Positions 7,071 to 20,428 of a DNA stretch of 21,619 nt are shown piece after piece. Under the pieces are notes generated by a model. That model was not told the origin of the DNA, ran no database searches, and saw only the letters and a program-made list of their open reading frames with translations. Source of the stretch: a virus; IMG/VR virus record IMGVR_UViG_3300034375_001313, positions 1 through 21,619 of that record, one strand, 5' to 3'. Both the position numbers and the translations under genes were made by a program. How positions within the stretch are numbered: position 1 is the stretch's first letter; every line of letters starts with the position of its first letter.

Positions 7071-9050
7071 ATGGCAACAGATATTGAAAAGCTACAAATT
7101 GCGATTGAGACGGTAGGCACAAAAGCCGCTCAAAAAGAGCTTACCAGAATGAAGAAAGCCGCTGATGAAGCGGCAAACGGCGTTGATGGATTAAATAAAC
7201 AAACGAAAAAAGCTCCTCCTCTCTTAAAAGGATATAGGGGCGCAACCTCAGCTCTAACTAATACTACTGGTCAATTATCTGTTCAGTTGCAGGATGTTGC
7301 AGTCCAAGCACAAATGGGTACTGATGGCCTCCGCATATTCGCGCAACAGGGGCCGCAGATTGCCTCTATCTTTGGCCCAACTGGTGCTGTCGTCGGTGCA
7401 TTGATTGCAGTCGGCGCGATCATTGCAGGGCCGTTTGTCAATAGCTTGCTAGCCGCCAACGAACAGCTCGAAAAGGCAACAAAAGGTCTTGAGGGGGTCA
7501 AAGATAAGATATATGAGCTGACCGAAGCTGAAAAAGCGGCGAGGGGAGCAATACTTGCTCGGCAAATGCGCGAAACTAGAGAAGCAATCAAGCAAGCAGA
7601 AGAATCTTTACAAGATGCAATAAGCACGAATCAGACCTTCCAGAAGGGCGGGAAAGATGTTGCGTCTATTTACTACCAACTAAAAAACGGAGTCATCGAT
7701 TACGATGAAGCTCTTGCTCAATCAAGCGAAGAATTGTTGATAGCGCAAGCTAACGTAGAAGATCAAAAACAGGCTTACAAAGAACTGTCGGATATTTTTG
7801 ACATATTAACCGGCAAGGTTGACGAGGAAACGGAAGCTCAGAAGCGCAGGAAAAAGGCTGTTGAGGAAACTCTCAATCAAGGAAGAATACAAGTAGCTAC
7901 CCTTAGAATGAGCGCAATCGAGGCAGAGCTGTTTAGGTTTTCATTGCAAGGTGCTACTGAAGATCAGATCAAGGCTCGTCGAGCGCAGTTAGAGGCTACT
8001 GCGGCATTTAAGGCAGATCAAGAGGCCAAAAAGAAAGCAGATCGAGAAGAAGAGGCTCGGAAGGCCGCCCGCAAGAGTTACATTGAGTCATTAGAACTAC
8101 AATCTCAAAAGCAAGGTAAATCTGTATTCCAGCAGATCATGGCAACAGCCGCGACAAAAAATCTCAACGACGAGCAGATGAAGCGAGTAACGATTGCGGC
8201 AGTAAGAATACAACAGCAAATTGATGAACAAGAGCGTCAGAAAGAGCTAAATGATGAACAGCGCGAATCATTGCGAATTAGTCAACAGGTAGCCGCCGCC
8301 AGACAGAGAGAGCAAGAGGCGTTAAAGCAAGCTCAGTTAGAGCTGGCAAAAGCCTTTGAAGACGATAGAAATAAGGCGATTGCTGAGTTACGTCAAGCTG
8401 GCCTATTGGAAGAGGAGAGGTTGCAAGACCTTTCGTACCAAAGACAACTAGATAAGCTCAAATTATTCCTTGCTCAGAAAAGCATTACTGAGGAAGAGTT
8501 TGGTGAAGCAAAGAAAAAGCTAGACAAGAAGACTCAAGATGCCGCAATCAAGACTGCGGCTGATGGCCTTCAGGCTTTGGGTCAATACAACAAGACAGCA
8601 TTTGAAGCGCACAAGGCTTACGCATCGGGCAAGGCGGTTATGGATACTTATGCCGCCGCAACAAAAGCATTTGCAGAGATTCCGCTCCCGTGGAGTATCG
8701 CGGCGGCGGCAGGGATCGTAGCAATGGGATTAGCCAACGTAGCATCAATTCAGTCACAACAATATCAGGGCCGTGCGCTTGGTGGGCAGGTTCGTGGTGG
8801 TCAAACCTATGTTGTCGGAGAACGTGGCCCAGAACTGCTGACGATGGGCGGAAGCGGCACTGTCACCCCGAATGAGAAACTCAGGGGTTCTACTGGCACT
8901 CAGTCTGTGTCAGAGACAGTCAATATTAACTTCCAGATCACTGCGAATGATGCATCAGGATTCGATCAACTTCTTGTCGCAAGACGAGGTATGATTGTCA
9001 GCATGATTAACCAAGCAATGAATAATCGTGGAAGGAGAGGCTTAGTATGA
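7071..9050 (+). CDS. Tail tape measure protein
   Basis: 659 residues, the longest gene of the tail tube block. The N-terminal part has a tape-measure pattern: MATDIEKLQIAIETVG with KAADEAANGVDGLNK, then SVQLQDVAVQAQMGTDGLRI-like and FAQQGPQIASIFG, followed by a hydrophobic segment at about 103-125. Residues about 130-480 are charged helices rich in Gln, Glu, Lys and Ala. A second hydrophobic segment follows at about 541-560 (WSIAAAAGIVAMGLANVASI), then RALGGQVRGGQTYVVGERGP, a conserved C-terminal mark of lambda H-like tape measures, and a final part with SETVNINFQITAND. It sets tail length, is carried in the tube and is thought to enter the cell envelope with the DNA. Its stop overlaps the next start (ATGA). 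Confidence 0.93.
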   Translation: MATDIEKLQIAIETVGTKAAQKELTRMKKAADEAANGVDGLNKQTKKAPPLLKGYRGATSALTNTTGQLSVQLQDVAVQAQMGTDGLRIFAQQGPQIASIFGPTGAVVGALIAVGAIIAGPFVNSLLAANEQLEKATKGLEGVKDKIYELTEAEKAARGAILARQMRETREAIKQAEESLQDAISTNQTFQKGGKDVASIYYQLKNGVIDYDEALAQSSEELLIAQANVEDQKQAYKELSDIFDILTGKVDEETEAQKRRKKAVEETLNQGRIQVATLRMSAIEAELFRFSLQGATEDQIKARRAQLEATAAFKADQEAKKKADREEEARKAARKSYIESLELQSQKQGKSVFQQIMATAATKNLNDEQMKRVTIAAVRIQQQIDEQERQKELNDEQRESLRISQQVAAARQREQEALKQAQLELAKAFEDDRNKAIAELRQAGLLEEERLQDLSYQRQLDKLKLFLAQKSITEEEFGEAKKKLDKKTQDAAIKTAADGLQALGQYNKTAFEAHKAYASGKAVMDTYAAATKAFAEIPLPWSIAAAAGIVAMGLANVASIQSQQYQGRALGGQVRGGQTYVVGERGPELLTMGGSGTVTPNEKLRGSTGTQSVSETVNINFQITANDASGFDQLLVARRGMIVSMINQAMNNRGRRGLV

Positions 9051-9616
9051 GCTATCCAACTGATCCAGAGTTTCAGTCAGTCAATTTCAGGTCTAATTCT
9101 CCGGTTACCTCTAATACATCTATCTCAGGGAAGCGCACAGTTCGCTCATTAAATTCTCAGAGATGGGAGTTTTCAGCTAGATATGACAGGCTTACTAAGG
9201 CAGAGTTTGGCCCTGTGTACGCATTTCTTGTTTCGCAGGGCGGTCAGTTTGGAGAGTTTTCAGTCACTCCAACAGAAATTAGTTCGGCTCGCGGGACTGC
9301 CAGCGGCACTTGCACGATTACTTCTGGGGCCAGCGCAGGAGCAACAACTGTATCTGTGGGGCTTACTGGGACTTTACTTAAAGGTGATTTAGTCAAGTTC
9401 TCCAACCATACAAAGGTCTACATGGTTACAGAGGATCGTAGCGGCAATGGAACGCTGACAATATTTCCTGCTTTGCTTCAGGCTGTGACAACATCTCATA
9501 CGGTTGTCTATGATGATGTGCCGGTGCAGGTAAGATTGGTCAATGATATTCAGGAATTTGAGTTAAACTCTAACAATCAGTATACGTTTGAAGTTGATTT
9601 TAGAGAGTCTTACTAA
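9047..9616 (+). CDS. Distal minor tail protein, first tail tip gene
   Basis: 189 residues, directly after the tape measure in an ATGA overlap. The beginning, YPTDPEFQSVNFRSNSPV and RSLNSQRWEFSARYDRLTKA, followed by FGPVYAFLVSQGGQFGEFSV, is the type of beta-rich start seen in minor tail proteins after the tape measure (lambda gpM-like position). Residues about 85-165 form an extra module with ASAGATTVSV, LLKGDLVKFSN and YMVTEDRSGNGTLTI, which looks like the inserted domain of this phage's own coat protein. The chain returns to VQVRLVNDIQEFELN and ends FEVDFRESY. It probably connects the tube end to the tip hub. Confidence 0.75.
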   Translation: MSYPTDPEFQSVNFRSNSPVTSNTSISGKRTVRSLNSQRWEFSARYDRLTKAEFGPVYAFLVSQGGQFGEFSVTPTEISSARGTASGTCTITSGASAGATTVSVGLTGTLLKGDLVKFSNHTKVYMVTEDRSGNGTLTIFPALLQAVTTSHTVVYDDVPVQVRLVNDIQEFELNSNNQYTFEVDFRESY

Positions 9617-10170
9617 TGGCACGGACTATCAATTCCAGCACTCTTGCTTCGTTTCAGTCGGACTCTTCATACATTCTGCATCTAGTCAGCGTTGACCTGA
9701 CGACGACTGTTATACGATATACATCTGCACCTATCGACGTGACTTACAACTCAAATACTTACACAGCAAGCGAGCTATTTGTGAATGTAGGAGGGGTGGC
9801 GCAAAGCTCCACGTTGCAAAACAATCAGTTGGGCATTTCTATATCCACTGCCGAAGGTAGTTTTGCACAGTATATGCAGACGTATAACTGGCACAACGGC
9901 GAAGTTCTTTACTATCTAGCCGCTTGTGATTCTTCGTCATCTATCATTGGTAGTCCAGTCCTGATGTTTAAGGGTCTTTTGTCCACTTGGAGTCTAAGCG
10001 AAGAAGATGGCAGTCAATTAGAGTTGACAGCGGACTCTCATTGGGCTGACTTTGAAAGAATTGGCGGAAGGAGAACAAACACCAATTCACAGCATCAATA
10101 TGATTCAGCGGATGATGGGATGGACTTTGCCGCAGAAGCCGTTCGTGACATGAAGTGGGGTGTTGCGTAA
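9616..10170 (+). CDS. Minor tail / baseplate hub protein (DUF2163-like)
   Basis: 184 residues. It starts MARTINSSTLASFQSDSSYI and continues with beta strands such as VDLTTTVIRYTSAPIDVTYN and a YLAACDSS-type strand, then MFKGLLSTWSLSEEDGSQL. The end, with SHWADFERIGGRRTNTNSQH and a following DDGMDFA...KWG, is the most conserved part: the GRRTN-SQxxxxxxDxGxxFA pattern is common in phage hub proteins of the DUF2163 kind. Position (after the distal tail protein, before the J-like protein) equals lambda gpL. It ends with TAATG overlap with the J-like gene. Confidence 0.7.
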   Translation: MARTINSSTLASFQSDSSYILHLVSVDLTTTVIRYTSAPIDVTYNSNTYTASELFVNVGGVAQSSTLQNNQLGISISTAEGSFAQYMQTYNWHNGEVLYYLAACDSSSSIIGSPVLMFKGLLSTWSLSEEDGSQLELTADSHWADFERIGGRRTNTNSQHQYDSADDGMDFAAEAVRDMKWGVA

Positions 10171-13100: not shown

Positions 13101-13370
13101 GTTACTTTAAAAGATGAATACGCAAACCTTCCAGATCAATATTCGATGATAGCTGTCAACTCTATCGGTGAAGGGAAAATCAACGTCTGCGGTCAGGCGG
13201 GGAATATCTCTGTTGGAGACTTAATTGTCGCATCTGATATGCAGGGTAAAGGTATGAAGCAGAGTGATGATATAATTCGCTCGTACACGGTAGCTAAATC
13301 ACGCGAGAATGTGACGTTCGCATCCGCTGATGAGGTTAAACAAATCGCTTGTATTTACTTAGGTGGATGA
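10170..13370 (+). CDS. Central tail tip / host specificity protein, lambda J-like
   Basis: 1,066 residues from ATG 10170, whose A is the last base of the previous TAA; GTG 10155 in the same frame is less likely. Around residues 84-100 the pattern YGERRVGGVRVFMETGG followed by YLYIALVLCEGPV is typical of J-like tip proteins, as are KIYDPRKD and VICLRDYLFDDNYGKG. Residues about 525-617 form a fibronectin type III-like domain ending in YQFYYRIIDRFGVASN. A Gly-rich part follows. Residues about 775-855 resemble the small FCCH-like beta domain common in phage fibres (GWGDGDVIYITGVSGMTQLN). The last 180 residues contain IAVNSIGEGKINVCGQAGNI, then VGDLIVASDMQGKGMKQ, a terminal domain seen in environmental phage tail proteins. 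It closes the tube and triggers DNA release on receptor contact. Confidence 0.9.
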   Translation: MGLIDNLWKETKSNLNFNAATSGVRNTFKAAGGLLNNPLEEINGGFTELVELFVDIPDFGDFSASQRSALLNKQANDAHIPVIYGERRVGGVRVFMETGGTDNQYLYIALVLCEGPVHSIGDIYIDDVLSTDSQFSGLVTIDKKTGESNQTASTTLTEATSWTSTHKLSGLAYLGIRLKYDSNVFSGLPNIQAVVKGRKIYDPRKDSTSDGYDSLLGVSTHRENDVTTWEWTDNNVICLRDYLFDDNYGKGIPSSEIDDVSVKVAANLIDTSVTEYTGASGTTNLYNCNMVVDTSVQIFSNVAAMLKSFRGMLPYSNGVYKIIVDDDPASSTFTFDADNIASGISVQSTSRKDRYNRVIANFVNKEKNYEPDEVSYPETGSAEHTAFLVADNNFIQETTIDLPATTSVYQARDIAKIALEFSRSQNLTVSFTAHQNLTSQNPNATCLVCEVGDKVVLNYPALNFSNKEFKVRAMTINNDSSCSFTLLEHDDTLYTWYEDDEVATVTPPTISVPKVEFIKNPITPSIPTLTVETETDTDGASKRYLLFTATSSTYEFTDYYEINYRIGTSGDYSTVFQKSPRFILYGFTAGSTYQFYYRIIDRFGVASNASATVGFTTTVAHQNDYNGTRIVAGSLTGTQVEDDSLPFEKTEAFSAKSYGGTVANPHYKGYVGPAGSGSGFEASSFAIGGKGYDNDSGTAIKGGVIGYAELGPALQAITENSNSYGHSDFYGAATLLGGYVYGSPPKFTSDVRLAYMNMGGDFVLGAQEAAQTIFSTATTNPVRVNMVSSQGWGDGDVIYITGVSGMTQLNGNSYYIKKISGVAPAFDLYTDIDLTVSVDGTSWSAGSGGTAQNLSRPELITSGTSFTPAAHVRIAWLYGTAYSIYTFQGTTGPFTASHDGLIDRTLAQPEIGDIVVDIDVFASPNVNDCITTMKVSSEANQVGVIGVCAGYNDRGFIPASLAKTTKQTGNEPSEGIKVTLKDEYANLPDQYSMIAVNSIGEGKINVCGQAGNISVGDLIVASDMQGKGMKQSDDIIRSYTVAKSRENVTFASADEVKQIACIYLGG

Positions 13371-13371
13371 T

Positions 13372-13707
13372 ATGGCTGATCCAATCAAACTCGTACAAGG
13401 GGATACAGCCCCGCAAATCAAAGCAACTGTAACCCGTAGCGACACAGGCGATGCTGTTGACGTGTCTGATGCAACAGTAAAGCTCCATTTCCGTAGAAAG
13501 TTCTCTGAAACTGTATTGTTCTCACTGACCAACCAAGGCACATCCGATCAGGCCGCAGATGGCATTTGTATCTTTGTCTTTGCCGCAGGGAATCTTGATC
13601 TTGATGCTGGGGAGTATGAAGGTGAGATTGAGGTTCTGTTCAATGGTGGAACCCGTGAAACAGTGTATGAAACACTTAACTTCTTAATGAGAGAAGACTT
13701 CCAGTGA
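13372..13707 (+). CDS. BppU N-terminal-like / Ig-like baseplate protein
   Basis: 111 residues from ATG 13372, preceded by AGGTGG at 13361-13366; GTG 13363 in frame is the alternative. The start MADPIKLVQGDTAPQIKATV, then DAVDVSDATVKLHFRRK and the end LDAGEYEGEIEVLFNGGTRE plus VYETLNF, shows the small beta sandwich seen at the N-terminus of BppU-type baseplate proteins. In lactococcal phages this domain ties receptor-binding proteins to the tail tip. Here it is a stand-alone protein, so it may act as an adaptor between the J-like tip and the repeat fibre coded right after it, with which it overlaps (GTGA). Confidence 0.75.
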   Translation: MADPIKLVQGDTAPQIKATVTRSDTGDAVDVSDATVKLHFRRKFSETVLFSLTNQGTSDQAADGICIFVFAAGNLDLDAGEYEGEIEVLFNGGTRETVYETLNFLMREDFQ

Positions 13708-15047
13708 GTTTGAGCCTATCGGCGGCTATTGTTGCTAAGAGAATACTAGCCGCAATATCCGCTGGTAGGGTAAAGGCCGCTATATCAGCGGGACGAGTCC
13801 TTGCTTCTATCACCGCAAGCAGGATTAGCGCATCTGTAACAGCCGCACAACTTCAAGTTGCGATTGTTATTGGCCGGTTCATTGAGATATTGAGGACTCA
13901 AGACAATGTGTCTGTGTCTCAGATATTCAGTTTATTATTCGTCAAGAGATTATCTGACTCAGCAGACCTGACAGATGAACATACAATCGATTACGGTAAG
14001 AATGAGTCAGAATCTATTGGCGTTACGCAACTAGCCGCCAAGTCTGTATCTAAGCCAGAGACAGACGCCTTCTCAGCATCAGATGACAGCACGATTGCGT
14101 ACGGCAAGAATCCAATCGAGTTTCCTAATCTCACAGAACAGGCTGTATTTTCATTCGGTAAATCTTTATCTGACACAGTAAACGCCACTGATGACGTTGA
14201 TGGTAACGCAACCATCGAAGACGATCAGAATATGACGTACAACAAGATACGTCTAAATACAGCACAGGTTGCAGAGGCTCACGCGATTGATTTTGTCAGG
14301 GGGCCAATATCTGACGCATTTAGCGCATCCGATCTGCACTCACTGGCGTATGGCAAGGTTGTTAATGATAGCGGTGCGCTGACAGACTCAAACACCGTAG
14401 ACTTTGGCAAGGCTCCATCTGATTCAGCCAACCTCACAGAGACACAGGAATTTGACCTAGGTACTGTCAAAACAGACTCAGCAAGCGTAACTGAAGCGCA
14501 TGAAGTGTCATTTAGGTTTGTACAGGCCGATACAAGCTCTCTAGCGGACGATCACGCTGTTTCCTATGGCAGTATCCAAGCTGACTTAGGAAGCGTCACA
14601 GAGAGCATTTCAAACAGCCCAAGTAAAGTTCTGACTGACTCTGGTTCATTTACAGATGACTCTGTGTTTAATGTCGGCAAGAACCCATCTGATTCAGGAT
14701 CGCTATCTGATCTGCACGTTGTCGATCTATCGAAGACACTAACTGACTCTGGCTCTGTTGCTGAGTCCTTTAGTCGAGTTGTAGCGTTTAGCCGATCATT
14801 TACTGAGACGATTTACGTTACAGATGATGTAAATGGTGCGGCAGTCGATGATGACCAGAACGCACAATTCTTCAAGAATCTTACAAACATTGGTTATACC
14901 TCTGATTCAGAGGTAAAATCAGTGGGTAAGAACCCGTCCGACTCTGCAAATTTCACGGAGTCAGGCGCGTATGAAGTGCAAGATTACGTTGATACGATGA
15001 CGTATTTTGCTGAAAACTATGTCGGGACTACCGGCTCATTGTTCTAA
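13704..15047 (+). CDS. Repeat-built tail fibre-like protein (9- and 18-residue repeats)
   Basis: 447 residues from GTG 13704 overlapping the previous stop. Residues 7-60 are six units of nine residues of the form A-[AS]-[IV]-x-A-x-R-[IV]-x. Residues 84-429 are eighteen units of mostly 18 residues with consensus [ST]DSx(x)[LVF]T[DE]xxxx(F/Y)GKxP. Two units (156-183 and 365-393) are longer by 10-11 residues and share DDVDGNA.(I)EDDQN and DDVNGAAVDDDQN. The C-terminal tail ends TTGSLF. No Cys is present. Such a regular, Ser/Asp/Thr-rich chain suggests an extended trimeric beta shaft or a lattice protein on the tail tip. Position between a BppU-like adaptor and the S74 fibre supports a fibre or linker. 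I know similar DSxSxTDxF repeats from environmental phage proteins, but not a named family. Confidence 0.78.
   Translation: MSLSLSAAIVAKRILAAISAGRVKAAISAGRVLASITASRISASVTAAQLQVAIVIGRFIEILRTQDNVSVSQIFSLLFVKRLSDSADLTDEHTIDYGKNESESIGVTQLAAKSVSKPETDAFSASDDSTIAYGKNPIEFPNLTEQAVFSFGKSLSDTVNATDDVDGNATIEDDQNMTYNKIRLNTAQVAEAHAIDFVRGPISDAFSASDLHSLAYGKVVNDSGALTDSNTVDFGKAPSDSANLTETQEFDLGTVKTDSASVTEAHEVSFRFVQADTSSLADDHAVSYGSIQADLGSVTESISNSPSKVLTDSGSFTDDSVFNVGKNPSDSGSLSDLHVVDLSKTLTDSGSVAESFSRVVAFSRSFTETIYVTDDVNGAAVDDDQNAQFFKNLTNIGYTSDSEVKSVGKNPSDSANFTESGAYEVQDYVDTMTYFAENYVGTTGSLF
13722..13883 (+). repeat. Six tandem 27-bp units coding nine-residue repeats
   Basis: Units (residues 7-60): AAIVAKRIL, AAISAGRVK, AAISAGRVL, ASITASRIS, ASVTAAQLQ, VAIVIGRFI. 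Units two and three are identical in eight consecutive residues but use different synonymous codons at six of those eight, so the repeat is maintained at protein level. Confidence 0.85.
13953..14990 (+). repeat. Eighteen tandem ~54-bp units coding 18-residue repeats
   Basis: Reading from residue 84 the frame divides into units such as SDSADLTDEHTIDYGKNE, TDAFSASDDSTIAYGKNP, SDSANLTETQEFDLGTVK, TDSGSFTDDSVFNVGKNP and SDSGSLSDLHVVDLSKTL. Fifteen of eighteen are exactly 18 residues, one is 19, and units five and sixteen are 28-29 because of a DD(V)NG...DDQN insertion. The DNA units are diverged. Confidence 0.85.
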
Positions 15048-15059
15048 TAGGAGAACACC

Positions 15060-15506
15060 ATGCTACAAGATAGCTTGAAACTAAGTGGACGGGTCGGAAT
15101 TGTCCTACGAGACAAAGACGGCAATATCATTGACGAGCAGACGACTGAGAACTTGGTTGTCAACGATGGCCTGAACTTTATCTGTTCGCGGATGGAAGGC
15201 ACGAGCCAAGACGTTATGTCGCACATGGCTGTTGGCACAGACAACACTGCCGTAGCCGCAGGGGATACAACTCTGGGTACTGAACTGGCACGAGTTGCTT
15301 TGACTAGCACCACAGTCTCTACAAACACCATTGAGTACGTTGCTTCATATTCAGCGGGTACTGGTACAGGTGCTTTGGTTGAGGCAGGTATTTTCAATGC
15401 CGCGTCAGCAGGTGATATGTTATGCCATGTGGTTTTCGATGTTATCAACAAGGCCGCCGCCGATAGCATGACGATCACTTGGACGATCACACTGACTGCA
15501 TCTTAA
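15060..15506 (+). CDS. Conserved small tail/structural phage protein
   Basis: 148 residues from ATG 15060 with AGGAGA (15049-15054) upstream. Blocks: LKLSGRVGIVLRDKDGNI, ENLVVNDGLNFICSRM, MSHMAVGTDNTAVAAGDTTL, VEAGIFNAASAGDMLCHVVF and SMTITWTITLTA. I recognise this as a frequent phage structural protein: the MSHMAVGxxxTAxAAGDTxLGxEL and EAGIFNA blocks are highly conserved in phages of Gram-negative bacteria and usually annotated only as hypothetical or tail-associated. The fold appears to be a compact beta sandwich. It lies between two fibre genes and may be a cap or connector for the fibres; an enzymatic role is not suggested by the sequence. Confidence 0.7.
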   Translation: MLQDSLKLSGRVGIVLRDKDGNIIDEQTTENLVVNDGLNFICSRMEGTSQDVMSHMAVGTDNTAVAAGDTTLGTELARVALTSTTVSTNTIEYVASYSAGTGTGALVEAGIFNAASAGDMLCHVVFDVINKAAADSMTITWTITLTAS

Positions 15507-18500: not shown

Positions 18501-18679
18501 GGGTAATCGCTCAAGAAGTAGAGAAAGTCCTGCCAGAAGTGGTCAAAGACGGCGAGGATGGTATTAAGTCAGTCGCCTACGCAAACATGGTCGGCCTACT
18601 CATCGAAGCGATTAAAGAACAGCAGACTCAGATTGACGATTTGAAGGCAGAAGTCACTCGACTGAAGGGGTTTGAATAA
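15530..18679 (+). CDS. Large tail fibre with C-terminal S74 self-cleaving chaperone domain
   Basis: 1,049 residues; GAGGAG at 15515-15520 precedes ATG 15530. The N-terminus, AIKTRQTDGTGVTNENAPLT with NEELDNNFIEL, is a common attachment end of phage fibres. The middle is beta-rich with repeated blocks such as RVGIGTISPSTNLDVVG (about 124) and KVGINEDDPSAKLHV (about 442), and SMRIDSSGNLLISG-type turns. From residue 952 the S74 peptidase/intramolecular chaperone domain begins: SDERIKDNIEQIDGALEKV, FNRTD, HAGVIAQEVEKVLPEVV and VAYANMVGLLIEAIKEQ, ending in a coiled coil. In this family the domain trimerises the fibre and cuts itself off before Ser952, with Lys957 as likely partner. Ends TAATG with the next gene. 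Confidence 0.92.
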   Translation: MAIKTRQTDGTGVTNENAPLTNEELDNNFIELVAEDALKANLSGAAFTGQVTISTSTENALDILAGTNNQRLLRLSHPTSPTAAGGYFDFNSDGTTDDNVVTFGVEYSGTDYDVLNIQRSTQRVGIGTISPSTNLDVVGANNNTFDTPYTILLQGTDAYNSGNAGSGIVFTGEYNSSEASTTFATISGVKENITDGNFTGALLFGTRKSSGTDIESMRIDSSGNLLISGSNTTPNTNSAGTTADNEMALRNDGLALFSAYKATTNVGVVMDINRTSTDGGILGFRKNGTTVGSIGTRNGYLHIRTEAGTNGSGIRFSDGYVMPCASDGSNSDATTDLGLSGSRFKDLYLSGDSYITFTDDNSFSASTSSWHNIIVRNTSENANNSCGIVFELNDTYHQNAGTGIAAVKANTSNDYGADLVIITRPESAAAVERMRVTNDGKVGINEDDPSAKLHVNSGTIDNVAIFESTDQAASIRLKDNSTYSAVSQSGSNFDISSDAGNTDDDSKLRLLTDGAVRAELNNIGMYASEFRAINLFDLAGGTGNSYDHRVILLAPLITTSTSHQNRVNGRITMAKTGGNVCDFFDVYVNNVYTDNRASFISHGQRTGHKFVSFDYDNITWLGIEFAYTANPYNEAYFIGQAITDISGAAEHQLKVISYKDTQSGTTVLNQEIYDSIADYTPNGLAKVDTSSSSFLSGPVTIDNSDDVGLTVKQSATRGGIRLGGGNGTGNHRLYFQADASNAYIDSYGGDAYNSLSIEASPLKLNNSSNGAITTGSGQFTFSGGSTGSYGPIISSTSTGGPAIKLDSNGTNGKELWLISNASGNTDGGGRFQFWNNSDNRTFATFAANAGERTKLYNPVEIAHTNLSAEPYSGLHIKNTNSASGAAYTGLYVDAAIQSHIRLATAGSLKWQMRTGTTTSGELRFYSWDGSADVFTLASNGNATLTGELTVNSDERIKDNIEQIDGALEKVQAIRGVTFNRTDTDDDTRHAGVIAQEVEKVLPEVVKDGEDGIKSVAYANMVGLLIEAIKEQQTQIDDLKAEVTRLKGFE

Positions 18680-19260
18680 TGGCAACTACATACGGTGCAA
18701 ATGGTCAGCAAGTCGTTCAGACTATAACCACATCAGACGTTGCGTTTTTTTTGATAAATTTAGAGCCTTATGTCAATCGGATCAGAGTCAACTATAAGAT
18801 GAAGGCCAATACACTGGGAACGCCATACATCAGATTCTTCAATGCCGCCAATACAAATGATGCGGCAACCCGAATGTATATTAAGGCGCATAATGTTGAT
18901 GAGGCTCCTACTGATACTCATACTTATTATACAAGTGGCACTGCGTTAAATCAGGAATTTCATTACGTTTCCTCTTTTTATCACAATGCTACTACAACTT
19001 ATCCTACTGATTTTTTGGATTTAACAGTCATCAGAACCAGTTACGATCATTTTTTTCAGCCCGCTTTCTTTTCCGAAGATAGTTACATAACCAGTTCTGG
19101 GACAAGACGTATTTCTCATGGCGGCGGCACTATATCCTATCGCTCATCGGCAGATGAAGAACCTTTGGGGATGTTGATTGGCTTTAACAATAATGGTCAA
19201 TTTGCAAAGGCAAATGTTAAGCATTGGGTGGAAGGCCAAGTTTTTGAGGGCGTAAACTGA
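18679..19260 (+). CDS. Putative receptor-binding / fibre tip protein 1 (unknown family)
   Basis: 193 residues, starting in a TAATG overlap with the S74 fibre. The composition is rich in Thr, Ser, Tyr, Phe, Asn and Gly and the pattern is beta throughout. Motifs: VNRIRVNYKMKANTLGTPYI, then RFFNAANTNDAATRMYI, and a late HGGGTISYR. No Cys and no membrane segment. The block V-RI...I-FF-AAN also appears, loosely, in the next gene (VTRIEF...IMDFYDASNN), so both may share a jelly-roll type fold. Position behind the fibre and before a fibre-assembly chaperone makes a receptor-contact role the best guess. I do not recognise the family. Confidence 0.65.
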   Translation: MATTYGANGQQVVQTITTSDVAFFLINLEPYVNRIRVNYKMKANTLGTPYIRFFNAANTNDAATRMYIKAHNVDEAPTDTHTYYTSGTALNQEFHYVSSFYHNATTTYPTDFLDLTVIRTSYDHFFQPAFFSEDSYITSSGTRRISHGGGTISYRSSADEEPLGMLIGFNNNGQFAKANVKHWVEGQVFEGVN

Positions 19261-19817
19261 TGGCTTTCAATCTTGTCAGGGAGGGGTTTGACTATAATGC
19301 TAGACAAAGCGTTACTACAAGCAGTCCGACTACGACAGAATTTAATGTAGATATTCCATCTGGAGACAGGGTTACGAGAATTGAGTTTCAGTGTTACCCA
19401 TCAAGCTCAACTGGGACAATAGACCCAATCATGGATTTTTATGATGCTAGCAACAACCAGTTACGTTGGACGGGAAATTACAGGACTCATCGAGGCGGAT
19501 CAACTCGGGGGCATTCTTCATCACTTAACAACTTAAATTCTGTATTCTTAGGCGGCTTTCAAATTGATAATTCACCAAGTTACCACTCAAATTGGTTTAT
19601 CGAGGTAACAAATCTATCTGGATACAACACGAACGTCATGTTTCGCGGATCGTACAATTCAACAACCACTGGGTACGAAACTATGATTTACGGGGCTGTA
19701 AGGATTGGAGGAGCCAATGGTTCTGTTGTTGAAGTCAGAAAGGTAACTCTTTCTCTTTTTGGCGGTACAGCATTTGATGTTGCTAATTATATCAGCATCG
19801 TGGGGATTGATTTGTAA
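19260..19817 (+). CDS. Putative receptor-binding / fibre tip protein 2 (unknown family)
   Basis: 185 residues, starting in TGATG overlap with the previous gene and ending in TAATG with the next. It holds VTRIEFQCYPSSSTGTIDPI, MDFYDASNNQLRW, a Gly/Ser/His loop (THRGGSTRGHSSS), SNWFIEVTNLSGYNTNVMF and a C-terminal VRKVTLSLFGGTAFDVA strand pair. The WFIEVTN block and an ending of the form I..G(G)T..V...I.GI resemble carbohydrate-binding tip domains of environmental phage proteins, which I judge by pattern only. One Cys (in FQCYP). Function inferred from context. Confidence 0.65.
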   Translation: MAFNLVREGFDYNARQSVTTSSPTTTEFNVDIPSGDRVTRIEFQCYPSSSTGTIDPIMDFYDASNNQLRWTGNYRTHRGGSTRGHSSSLNNLNSVFLGGFQIDNSPSYHSNWFIEVTNLSGYNTNVMFRGSYNSTTTGYETMIYGAVRIGGANGSVVEVRKVTLSLFGGTAFDVANYISIVGIDL

Positions 19818-20428
19818 TGGCGATCTTTACTGGTTCAGGATTTGATTGGGTACAACTGCTAGAAGTTAGTGATACATCAAGCGAATATGAAACAGAACAC
19901 ATCATCTCTTGGAATGAATATGTAGAGTCTGGCACTGTTACGGAAGGGACATATATGATTTATATATGCTATACCCAAGCAACAGTTGATGGCACAACTA
20001 GTCTAAATACACAAAATGCTAGCCCAAGCTTCCAGATGATGAATCAAGGCACTGCCTTGCCTACGACTTTTTTTACTATCTCTTGGCATAATGGTTTTAA
20101 TTGGACTTATAACTCTACTGAAAGCTCTGCCACAGCGCAAAGATTCTTTTCTGGAACAAATCCGACTTTCCCTAGCACATTACACAGTGTTGTTGTAAGA
20201 ATGGAATTGCGACTAGAGGTTGGCAATTGTGCCTATCGTGGACAAGTAGTAGGGCCGATATGTCCAGACAAAGGTAGGCCAATTCAAGGATACTTTCATG
20301 GGCGAGTACATGACTATACTAATCTTCCAACGAATATGAGATTGTTCACTTTTACTAGCAGTATTGGTAGTGACGTATACTTCCCAAGGTGCGTTGCAAG
20401 TGCATATCGAATGAATACTTCATGGTGA
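19817..20428 (+). CDS. Putative receptor-binding / fibre tip protein 3 (unknown family)
   Basis: 203 residues, starting in TAATG overlap. It begins MAIFTGSGFDWVQLLEVSDT and contains TYMIYICYTQATVDGTTSLN, ISWHNGFNWTYNSTESS, a region VVVRMELRLEVGNCAYRGQV, then GPICPDKGRPIQGYFHGRVH and a final YRMNTSW. It is rich in aromatic residues and Thr/Ser, with four Cys. It has little visible similarity to the two preceding genes apart from length and composition. A receptor-contact or fibre cap role is inferred from the place just before the fibre chaperone. No known motif was recognised. Confidence 0.62.
   Translation: MAIFTGSGFDWVQLLEVSDTSSEYETEHIISWNEYVESGTVTEGTYMIYICYTQATVDGTTSLNTQNASPSFQMMNQGTALPTTFFTISWHNGFNWTYNSTESSATAQRFFSGTNPTFPSTLHSVVVRMELRLEVGNCAYRGQVVGPICPDKGRPIQGYFHGRVHDYTNLPTNMRLFTFTSSIGSDVYFPRCVASAYRMNTSW

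Follow-up and report, generated by a model that had tools for sequence, protein, structure and literature searches.

The gene at positions 13,704–15,047 of the window, by which we mean the whole 21,619-nucleotide stretch of viral DNA analysed here (IMG/VR record IMGVR_UViG_3300034375_001313), probably encodes a protein that serves a tailed phage as a spacer at the tail tip (baseplate) or as a fibre shaft. We base this assignment on the conserved repeats of the protein, its change in length by whole units, purifying selection, its place in a fixed set of three genes and, in cultured phages, its fusion to a tail protein. The repeat gene sits in this three-gene set in hundreds of related aquatic viruses. 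Neither Pfam nor the PDB contains the repeat, and it has no PHROG of its own with a functional annotation, yet it occurs in at least 421 IMG/VR stretches. The open reading frame itself is as described by an earlier annotation made from the letters of the DNA (the sequence-only reading), on the plus strand and 447 residues long. The features discussed below are collected in Table 1.

Table 1. Coordinates of the repeat gene, its internal features and its neighbours in the window (residue numbers are those of the repeat protein).
Feature	Position	Strand	Details
Tape measure	7071-9050
pb9-like distal tail gene	9047-9616
Hub-attachment-like gene	9616-10170
J-like central tail fibre, 1071 aa	10155..13370	+	phrog_31 E 1e-57, PF13550 E 7e-9
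Upstream partner, 114 aa, BppU_N-like / phrog_1084	13363..13707	+	phrog_1084 E 1.3e-5
Repeat protein gene	13704..15047	+	GTG start; 447 aa; 9-mer head, 18-mer body, conserved C-terminal tip
9-residue repeats, residues 1-63	13704..13892	+	six clear units; pattern x-V-x-A-x-I-S/T-A-G/S
Eighteen 18-residue units, residues 81-426	13944..14981	+	PSSM scan
DDVDGNATIEDDQ insert within a unit, residues 163-175	14190..14228	+	unit starts 153 and 181, 28 residues apart
Second insert, DDVNGAAVDDDQ, residues 374-385	14823..14858	+	PSSM scan
Conserved C-terminal tip, residues 427-447, DYVDTMTYFAENYVGTTGSLF	14982..15044	+	alignments A2, A3
Downstream partner, 148 aa, phrog_5417	15060..15506	+	phrog_5417 E 7e-31; tail fibre phrog_4176 E 1e-11
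Tail fibre with S74 endosialidase-chaperone domain, 1049 aa	15530..18679	+	PF13884 E 3.8e-17

Repeats of nine and eighteen residues

In the head, identity at a lag of 9 amounts to 39.6% over residues 1–62, compared with 12.0% in shuffled sequences (z 6.5, 0 of 2000 shuffles), and six clear 9-mers occupy residues 10–63, in agreement with the six units that the sequence-only reading had assigned to the N-terminal 60 residues. Across the family, lag 9 is the only one raised among lags 7–11 (84 N-termini, mean z 2.31), the period being clearest in relative L084, in which YVKLQAATS is repeated. The 9-mers of the window protein (SAGRVKAAI, SAGRVLASI and others) are without Asp and do not follow the Gly-rich, Asp-containing nonapeptide GGxGxDxUx of RTX beta-rolls. 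Relative L005, the head of which is 44% identical to that of the window protein over residues 1–80, retains the 9-residue period (lag-9 z 5.2). At this locus (L005:5499-5740) the 44% identity of the head stands against 85% for the body, in which there are few synonymous changes, a sequence pattern that likely reflects mosaic exchange at the head-body boundary.

The body has a period of its own: over residues 63–447, identity at lag 18 is 18.5% versus 7.7% in shuffles (z 8.0), with lag 36 at z 7.9. A PSSM, built iteratively from 964 distinct units of the family, detects exactly eighteen units in the protein, spanning residues 81–426, with a summed score of 344 bits against a maximum of 21 in 200 shuffles, a score that is not independent, as the matrix contains units of the window protein and its closest relatives; the lag statistics are independent. 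Eighteen was also the count of the sequence-only reading, which had set the units about 3 residues out of register, at 84–429. Extra residues break the run, mainly two inserts of the DDxxGxxxxDDQ type. Similar Asp-rich inserts occur in many relatives, adding about 8–10 residues per unit, and resemble metal-binding loops, a putative assignment. The tip that follows the body has the family consensus QGYCDxTYFAEDYVGxSRTF, the columns of which are invariant in alignment A2 and near-invariant in A3, and it is kept in cultured phages.

The family consensus of the 18-mer is K-x-L-S-D-S-V/A-S-V-T-D-S-x-x-L-x-V/F-G. Its odd positions hold the hydrophobics together with Lys/Arg at position 1 (85% of the 964 units) and Asp/Glu/Asn at positions 5 (99%) and 11 (97%), big hydrophobics occupying positions 3 and 17 in 72–74% of units, and its even positions hold mostly small residues. 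Correlated with itself, the averaged 18-mer profile gives +0.29 to +0.35 at even offsets (highest at 6) and negative values at all odd offsets (-0.19 to -0.34), including -0.34 at offset 9. Lag 6 is likewise raised in the 18-mer region (z 2.2 in the window protein, 2.66 in the relatives). Eighteen is twice nine numerically, as had been pointed out in the sequence-only reading, but the step from there to an 18-mer derived from a doubled 9-mer was rejected on the profile and on lag 9, which has a z of -1.6 in the window protein and a mean of -1.85 in 87 relatives. The two-residue alternation fits extended strands; this is suggestive only, because beta does not come out ahead of alpha in Chou-Fasman averages (0.96 vs 0.99) and the hydropathy of the window protein has power at period 6 (p = 0.001) and also at 3.6.

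Relatives, length change and selection

The repeat protein has six near relatives in IMG/VR. Scanning with the upstream gene yielded 50 loci, in nearly all of which the next ORF, where present, has the 18-residue period, and a scan seeded from the C-terminal tip (the family-wide alignment A1 being too divergent to seed one) confirmed the at least 421 stretches mentioned above, 80 of which were kept, all with the 18-residue period. The unit recurs in 84 of 84 complete distinct proteins, which span 7–34 units and 217–771 residues and include many close kin (filtering the C-terminal part at 93% leaves 57). Conservation of the period, on which the sequence-only reading had staked its case beforehand, is therefore seen in every complete relative examined. 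Searches of Pfam and PHROGs with the window protein gave no significant match, the repeats have no match in Pfam, and tblastn of the window protein and of relatives L027 and L033 against 50,697 phage records returned none, cultured phages being reached only via the C-terminal tip or the partner genes. GTDB bacterial and archaeal genome contigs, scanned twice, contained pattern matches and no confirmed relative, and within open-access papers we found nothing matching such a repeat in phages. The protein apparently belongs to an undescribed family of tail-tip repeat proteins.

Length differences were read as internal gaps after relatives that share at least 55% identity had been aligned globally. 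In the body these gaps measure 36, 54, 72, 90 and 126 residues, all multiples of 18, and in the head 9 residues (eight distinct inserts); the exceptions are a gap of 8 (a DDxDGxxxxxDDQ insert), one of a single residue and one of 9 residues at the C-terminus of L039. That locus (L039:5335-6297) has an altered C-terminus relative to near-identical relatives, as from a frameshift or an assembly error. The whole-unit gaps between close relatives, together with the range in unit number, bear out the proposal of the sequence-only reading that length varies by adding units. Identity between units is about 25% within a protein at any distance and 22% between proteins, which makes slippage between similar DNA copies unlikely. 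Units that are old, the lack of a DNA repeat (see below) and indels of exact units together point to selection for register rather than slippage, and selection against out-of-register changes is the simplest explanation of the unit-wise indels.

Codon usage leads to the same level of selection. The neighbouring 9-mers SAGRVKAAI and SAGRVLASI have seven residues in common and differ in codon at 7 of 7; the synonymous differences reported in the sequence-only reading are thus real, its count of six of eight being amended. Throughout the 9-mer region, identical residues at lag 9 differ in codon in 17 of 21 pairs (15.1 expected) and agree in 4 of 21 (5.9 expected), and identical residues at lag 18 have the same codon in 23 of 64 (25.1 expected). 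Codon agreement no higher than random among unit-spaced identical residues argues that the repeat is kept at the protein level. The dN/dS of the window protein is 0.14 against L010 and 0.20 against L011 (range for the two 0.08–0.21), and 0.40 against L005 (0.42 for the body). That the window repeats stem from a recent tandem duplication was rejected on account of the random-like codons, the age of the units and the result of Tandem Repeats Finder, which detected no tandem DNA repeat in the gene (13704-15047). Selection on the protein and the absence of a fresh duplication, both put forward in the sequence-only reading, are in this way supported by codon choice, the first also by dN/dS and by unit identity that does not fall with distance, the second also by the lack of a DNA repeat. 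The sole sign of recent duplication seen is at L057:5385-6245, which has a strong 36-residue period (z 13) and near-identical adjacent blocks.

These data bear on the alternative of a flexible, largely disordered linker or entropic spacer, the repeats of which expand and contract without a fixed fold. For the window protein (22-row alignment) AlphaFold2 reached a mean pLDDT of 34.7, and for the regular relative L092 (44-row alignment) one of 38.6. Both runs covered monomers only and used alignments that are shallow for such repeats, so that they would neither confirm the solenoid or trimeric beta shaft suggested in the sequence-only reading nor amount to confident disorder. Low confidence throughout the repeats and a Ser/Thr/Asp/Ala-rich composition are what such a linker would be expected to give, and for segments next to a phage module that were modelled poorly, the LSH1 authors proposed either a linker under weak selection or a repetitive motif (PMC13243795). 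We nevertheless consider a linker of this kind unlikely, given the acidic or Asn residues at positions 5 and 11, the basic residue at 1 and the hydrophobics at 3 and 17 at the frequencies given above, the whole-unit indels despite the low identity between units, and dN/dS values well below 1.

The gene trio in the tail region

The repeat gene lies in the tail-fibre region together with conserved tail partners, the trio having the J-like gene before it and the S74 fibre after it, and the fibre setting assumed in the sequence-only reading is accordingly retained. The upstream partner gene shares 4 bases with the start of the repeat gene, and its BppU_N link rests on 1 of 15 aligned family members (Pfam BppU_N 4.9e-5). 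A relative of the upstream partner directly precedes the repeat gene in 88 of 88 tested loci and a phrog_5417 relative directly follows it in 83 of 84, the loci having partly been found via the upstream gene and 59 distinct complete proteins coming from the scan with the repeat protein itself. The downstream partner matches residues 403–508 of PDB 9h4p (E 8e-9), the baseplate hub of archaeal virus HFTV1 (PMC12494034), and weakly matches Gp80, fibre I of podophage GP4. In Nitrososphaera phage Pro-Nvie1, a phrog_5417 relative (L149:4001-4315) carries the annotation of putative tail fibre, and the phrog_5417 matches to this phage and to the HFTV1 hub suggest a bacterial-archaeal link. Following the S74 fibre, three consecutive ORFs of 185–203 aa are found at 18679-20428; none has a Pfam match, and the two scanned against PHROGs gave none there.

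Cultured phages contain the cassette both free and fused. Achromobacter phage CF418P1, a temperate prophage (PMC10457797), has the BppU-like, repeat (177 aa) and phrog_5417 genes in this order after an SU10-type head-tail adaptor gene, its upstream gene being BppU_N-like by profile (E 4.5e-30). Aeromonas phage phiA008 and EBPR siphovirus 1 have trios of a similar kind, in which visual inspection alone identifies the upstream gene. As in the window, the repeat gene of these three is followed directly by the phrog_5417 relative; unlike in the window, their repeat proteins measure 138–296 aa, have more degenerate units and are annotated as hypothetical proteins. In JWX, SE2, Axy14, BcepGomr and Simon, the tip and a small number of units are joined to a tail domain of about 255 residues (phrog_384, 'virion structural protein'). 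Wherever the surrounding genes are annotated, this fusion gene comes immediately after that of the tape measure; the phrog_5417 relative follows it. Units in these cultured phages score above shuffles (p 0.01 or less, phiA008 being the weakest), and those of the five fusion phages do so at p 0.005 or less. The same unit scan found the tape measure, J and S74 proteins of the window and phiAxp-1 orf54 not above shuffles, and the HFTV1 hub, included as a further comparison, borderline (p 0.025). The phrog_384 member orf54 of phiAxp-1, which is without 18-mers, was detected in virions by LC-MS/MS with 22 peptides (PMC4764938). As direct virion proof of the repeats this protein was rejected, since it has no units.

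Small conserved genes beside fibre genes sometimes encode fibre chaperones, and the repeat protein might by its position be a tail-fibre assembly factor or chaperone that stays outside the mature virion. This we hold to be very improbable: in the JWX-type phages a phrog_384 protein carries the module within its own chain, a phrog_384 member is present in virions, and the variable number of units fits a structural spacer. The trio, found in siphovirus-type and other tail organisations, both free and fused, offers a handle for annotating the dark tail genes of aquatic viromes.

A candidate shaft among known systems

For a tail-tip spacer or shaft, we infer the anchoring, oligomer state, rigidity and reach as follows. 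Together with the BppU_N-like partner, the N-terminal 9-mer domain (or the fused tail domain) would dock on the tail tip; the 18-mers would build a shaft of extended beta type, rigid, locked in register and probably homo-oligomeric, with a reach set by their number; and the conserved C-terminal tip would join or seat the next protein (phrog_5417 or fibre). The cassette would then be an adjustable arm between tail tip and adhesin. More tentatively, it may represent a new class of phage fibre shaft, with a register-locked 18-residue beta repeat, a 9-residue docking head, a whole-unit ruler and a fold not in the PDB, in which profile searches with two repeat alignments gave chance-level matches only. 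The cassette provides a test case for repeat number setting reach and a candidate fold beyond monomer prediction.

A single-chain beta-solenoid in place of an intertwined oligomer, be it a two-strand beta-roll or a left-handed beta-helix in which each 18-residue coil holds three hexads, would account for the sub-period of 6 in profile and hydropathy, 18 being 3 x 6. AlphaFold2 often recognises single-chain solenoids, and it built none even for L092 with its deeper alignment, a modelling outcome that lowers the case for a simple solenoid of this type. Moreover, the alternating face that bears the hydrophobics also holds Asp at positions 5 and 11 and Lys/Arg at position 1, and we judge the solenoid improbable. 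Compared with the left-handed beta-helix hexads [LIV]-[GAED]-x2-[STAV]-x, the 18-mer has the sub-period of 6, but Ser/Thr predominate at hexad position 2 and the third hexad, L-x-V-G-K-x, departs from the pattern.

Triple beta-spiral and triple-stranded beta-helix shafts, such as those of the adenovirus fibre and T4 gp5, consist of stacked short repeats, and their length follows the number of units. The window repeat has no sequence match to these shafts and differs in unit length and residue pattern. Its period is exactly 18, against about 15 residues with a turn Gly/Pro in the triple beta-spiral, Gly and Pro together reaching at most 24% at any 18-mer position (highest at 18 and 2), and its periods of 9 and 18 are not the 8 of the T4 gp5-type octad VxGxxxxx. 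GP4 fibre I gp80 (PF23140; PDB 8JOU) and the HFTV1 hub, as fibre and baseplate relatives of the downstream partner, resemble that partner and not the repeat protein, the GP4 matches lying below the Pfam cut-off. The undescribed phrog_12240 is matched by 11 of 22 family members (best E 3.6e-10) and not by the window protein.

The phrog_384 proteins (JWX gp22, YP_009196207.1; BcepGomr gp17, YP_001210237.1; Axy14_022, QDH84241.1) share with the window protein C-terminal 18-residue units and a YFAESYVG-type tip, and several window relatives match the C-terminal ~90 residues of phrog_384 (E about 0.003–0.009). The window protein itself aligns with phrog_384 only at residues 412–446 (E 0.42, no significant match) and is without the N-terminal domain: where phrog_384 proteins combine a tail domain of some 255 residues with few units, it has a 9-mer head and eighteen units. 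Phages are already known to have arms and fibres whose length depends on the number of repeats, and the present family is a variant among these repeat-built phage fibres and spacers.
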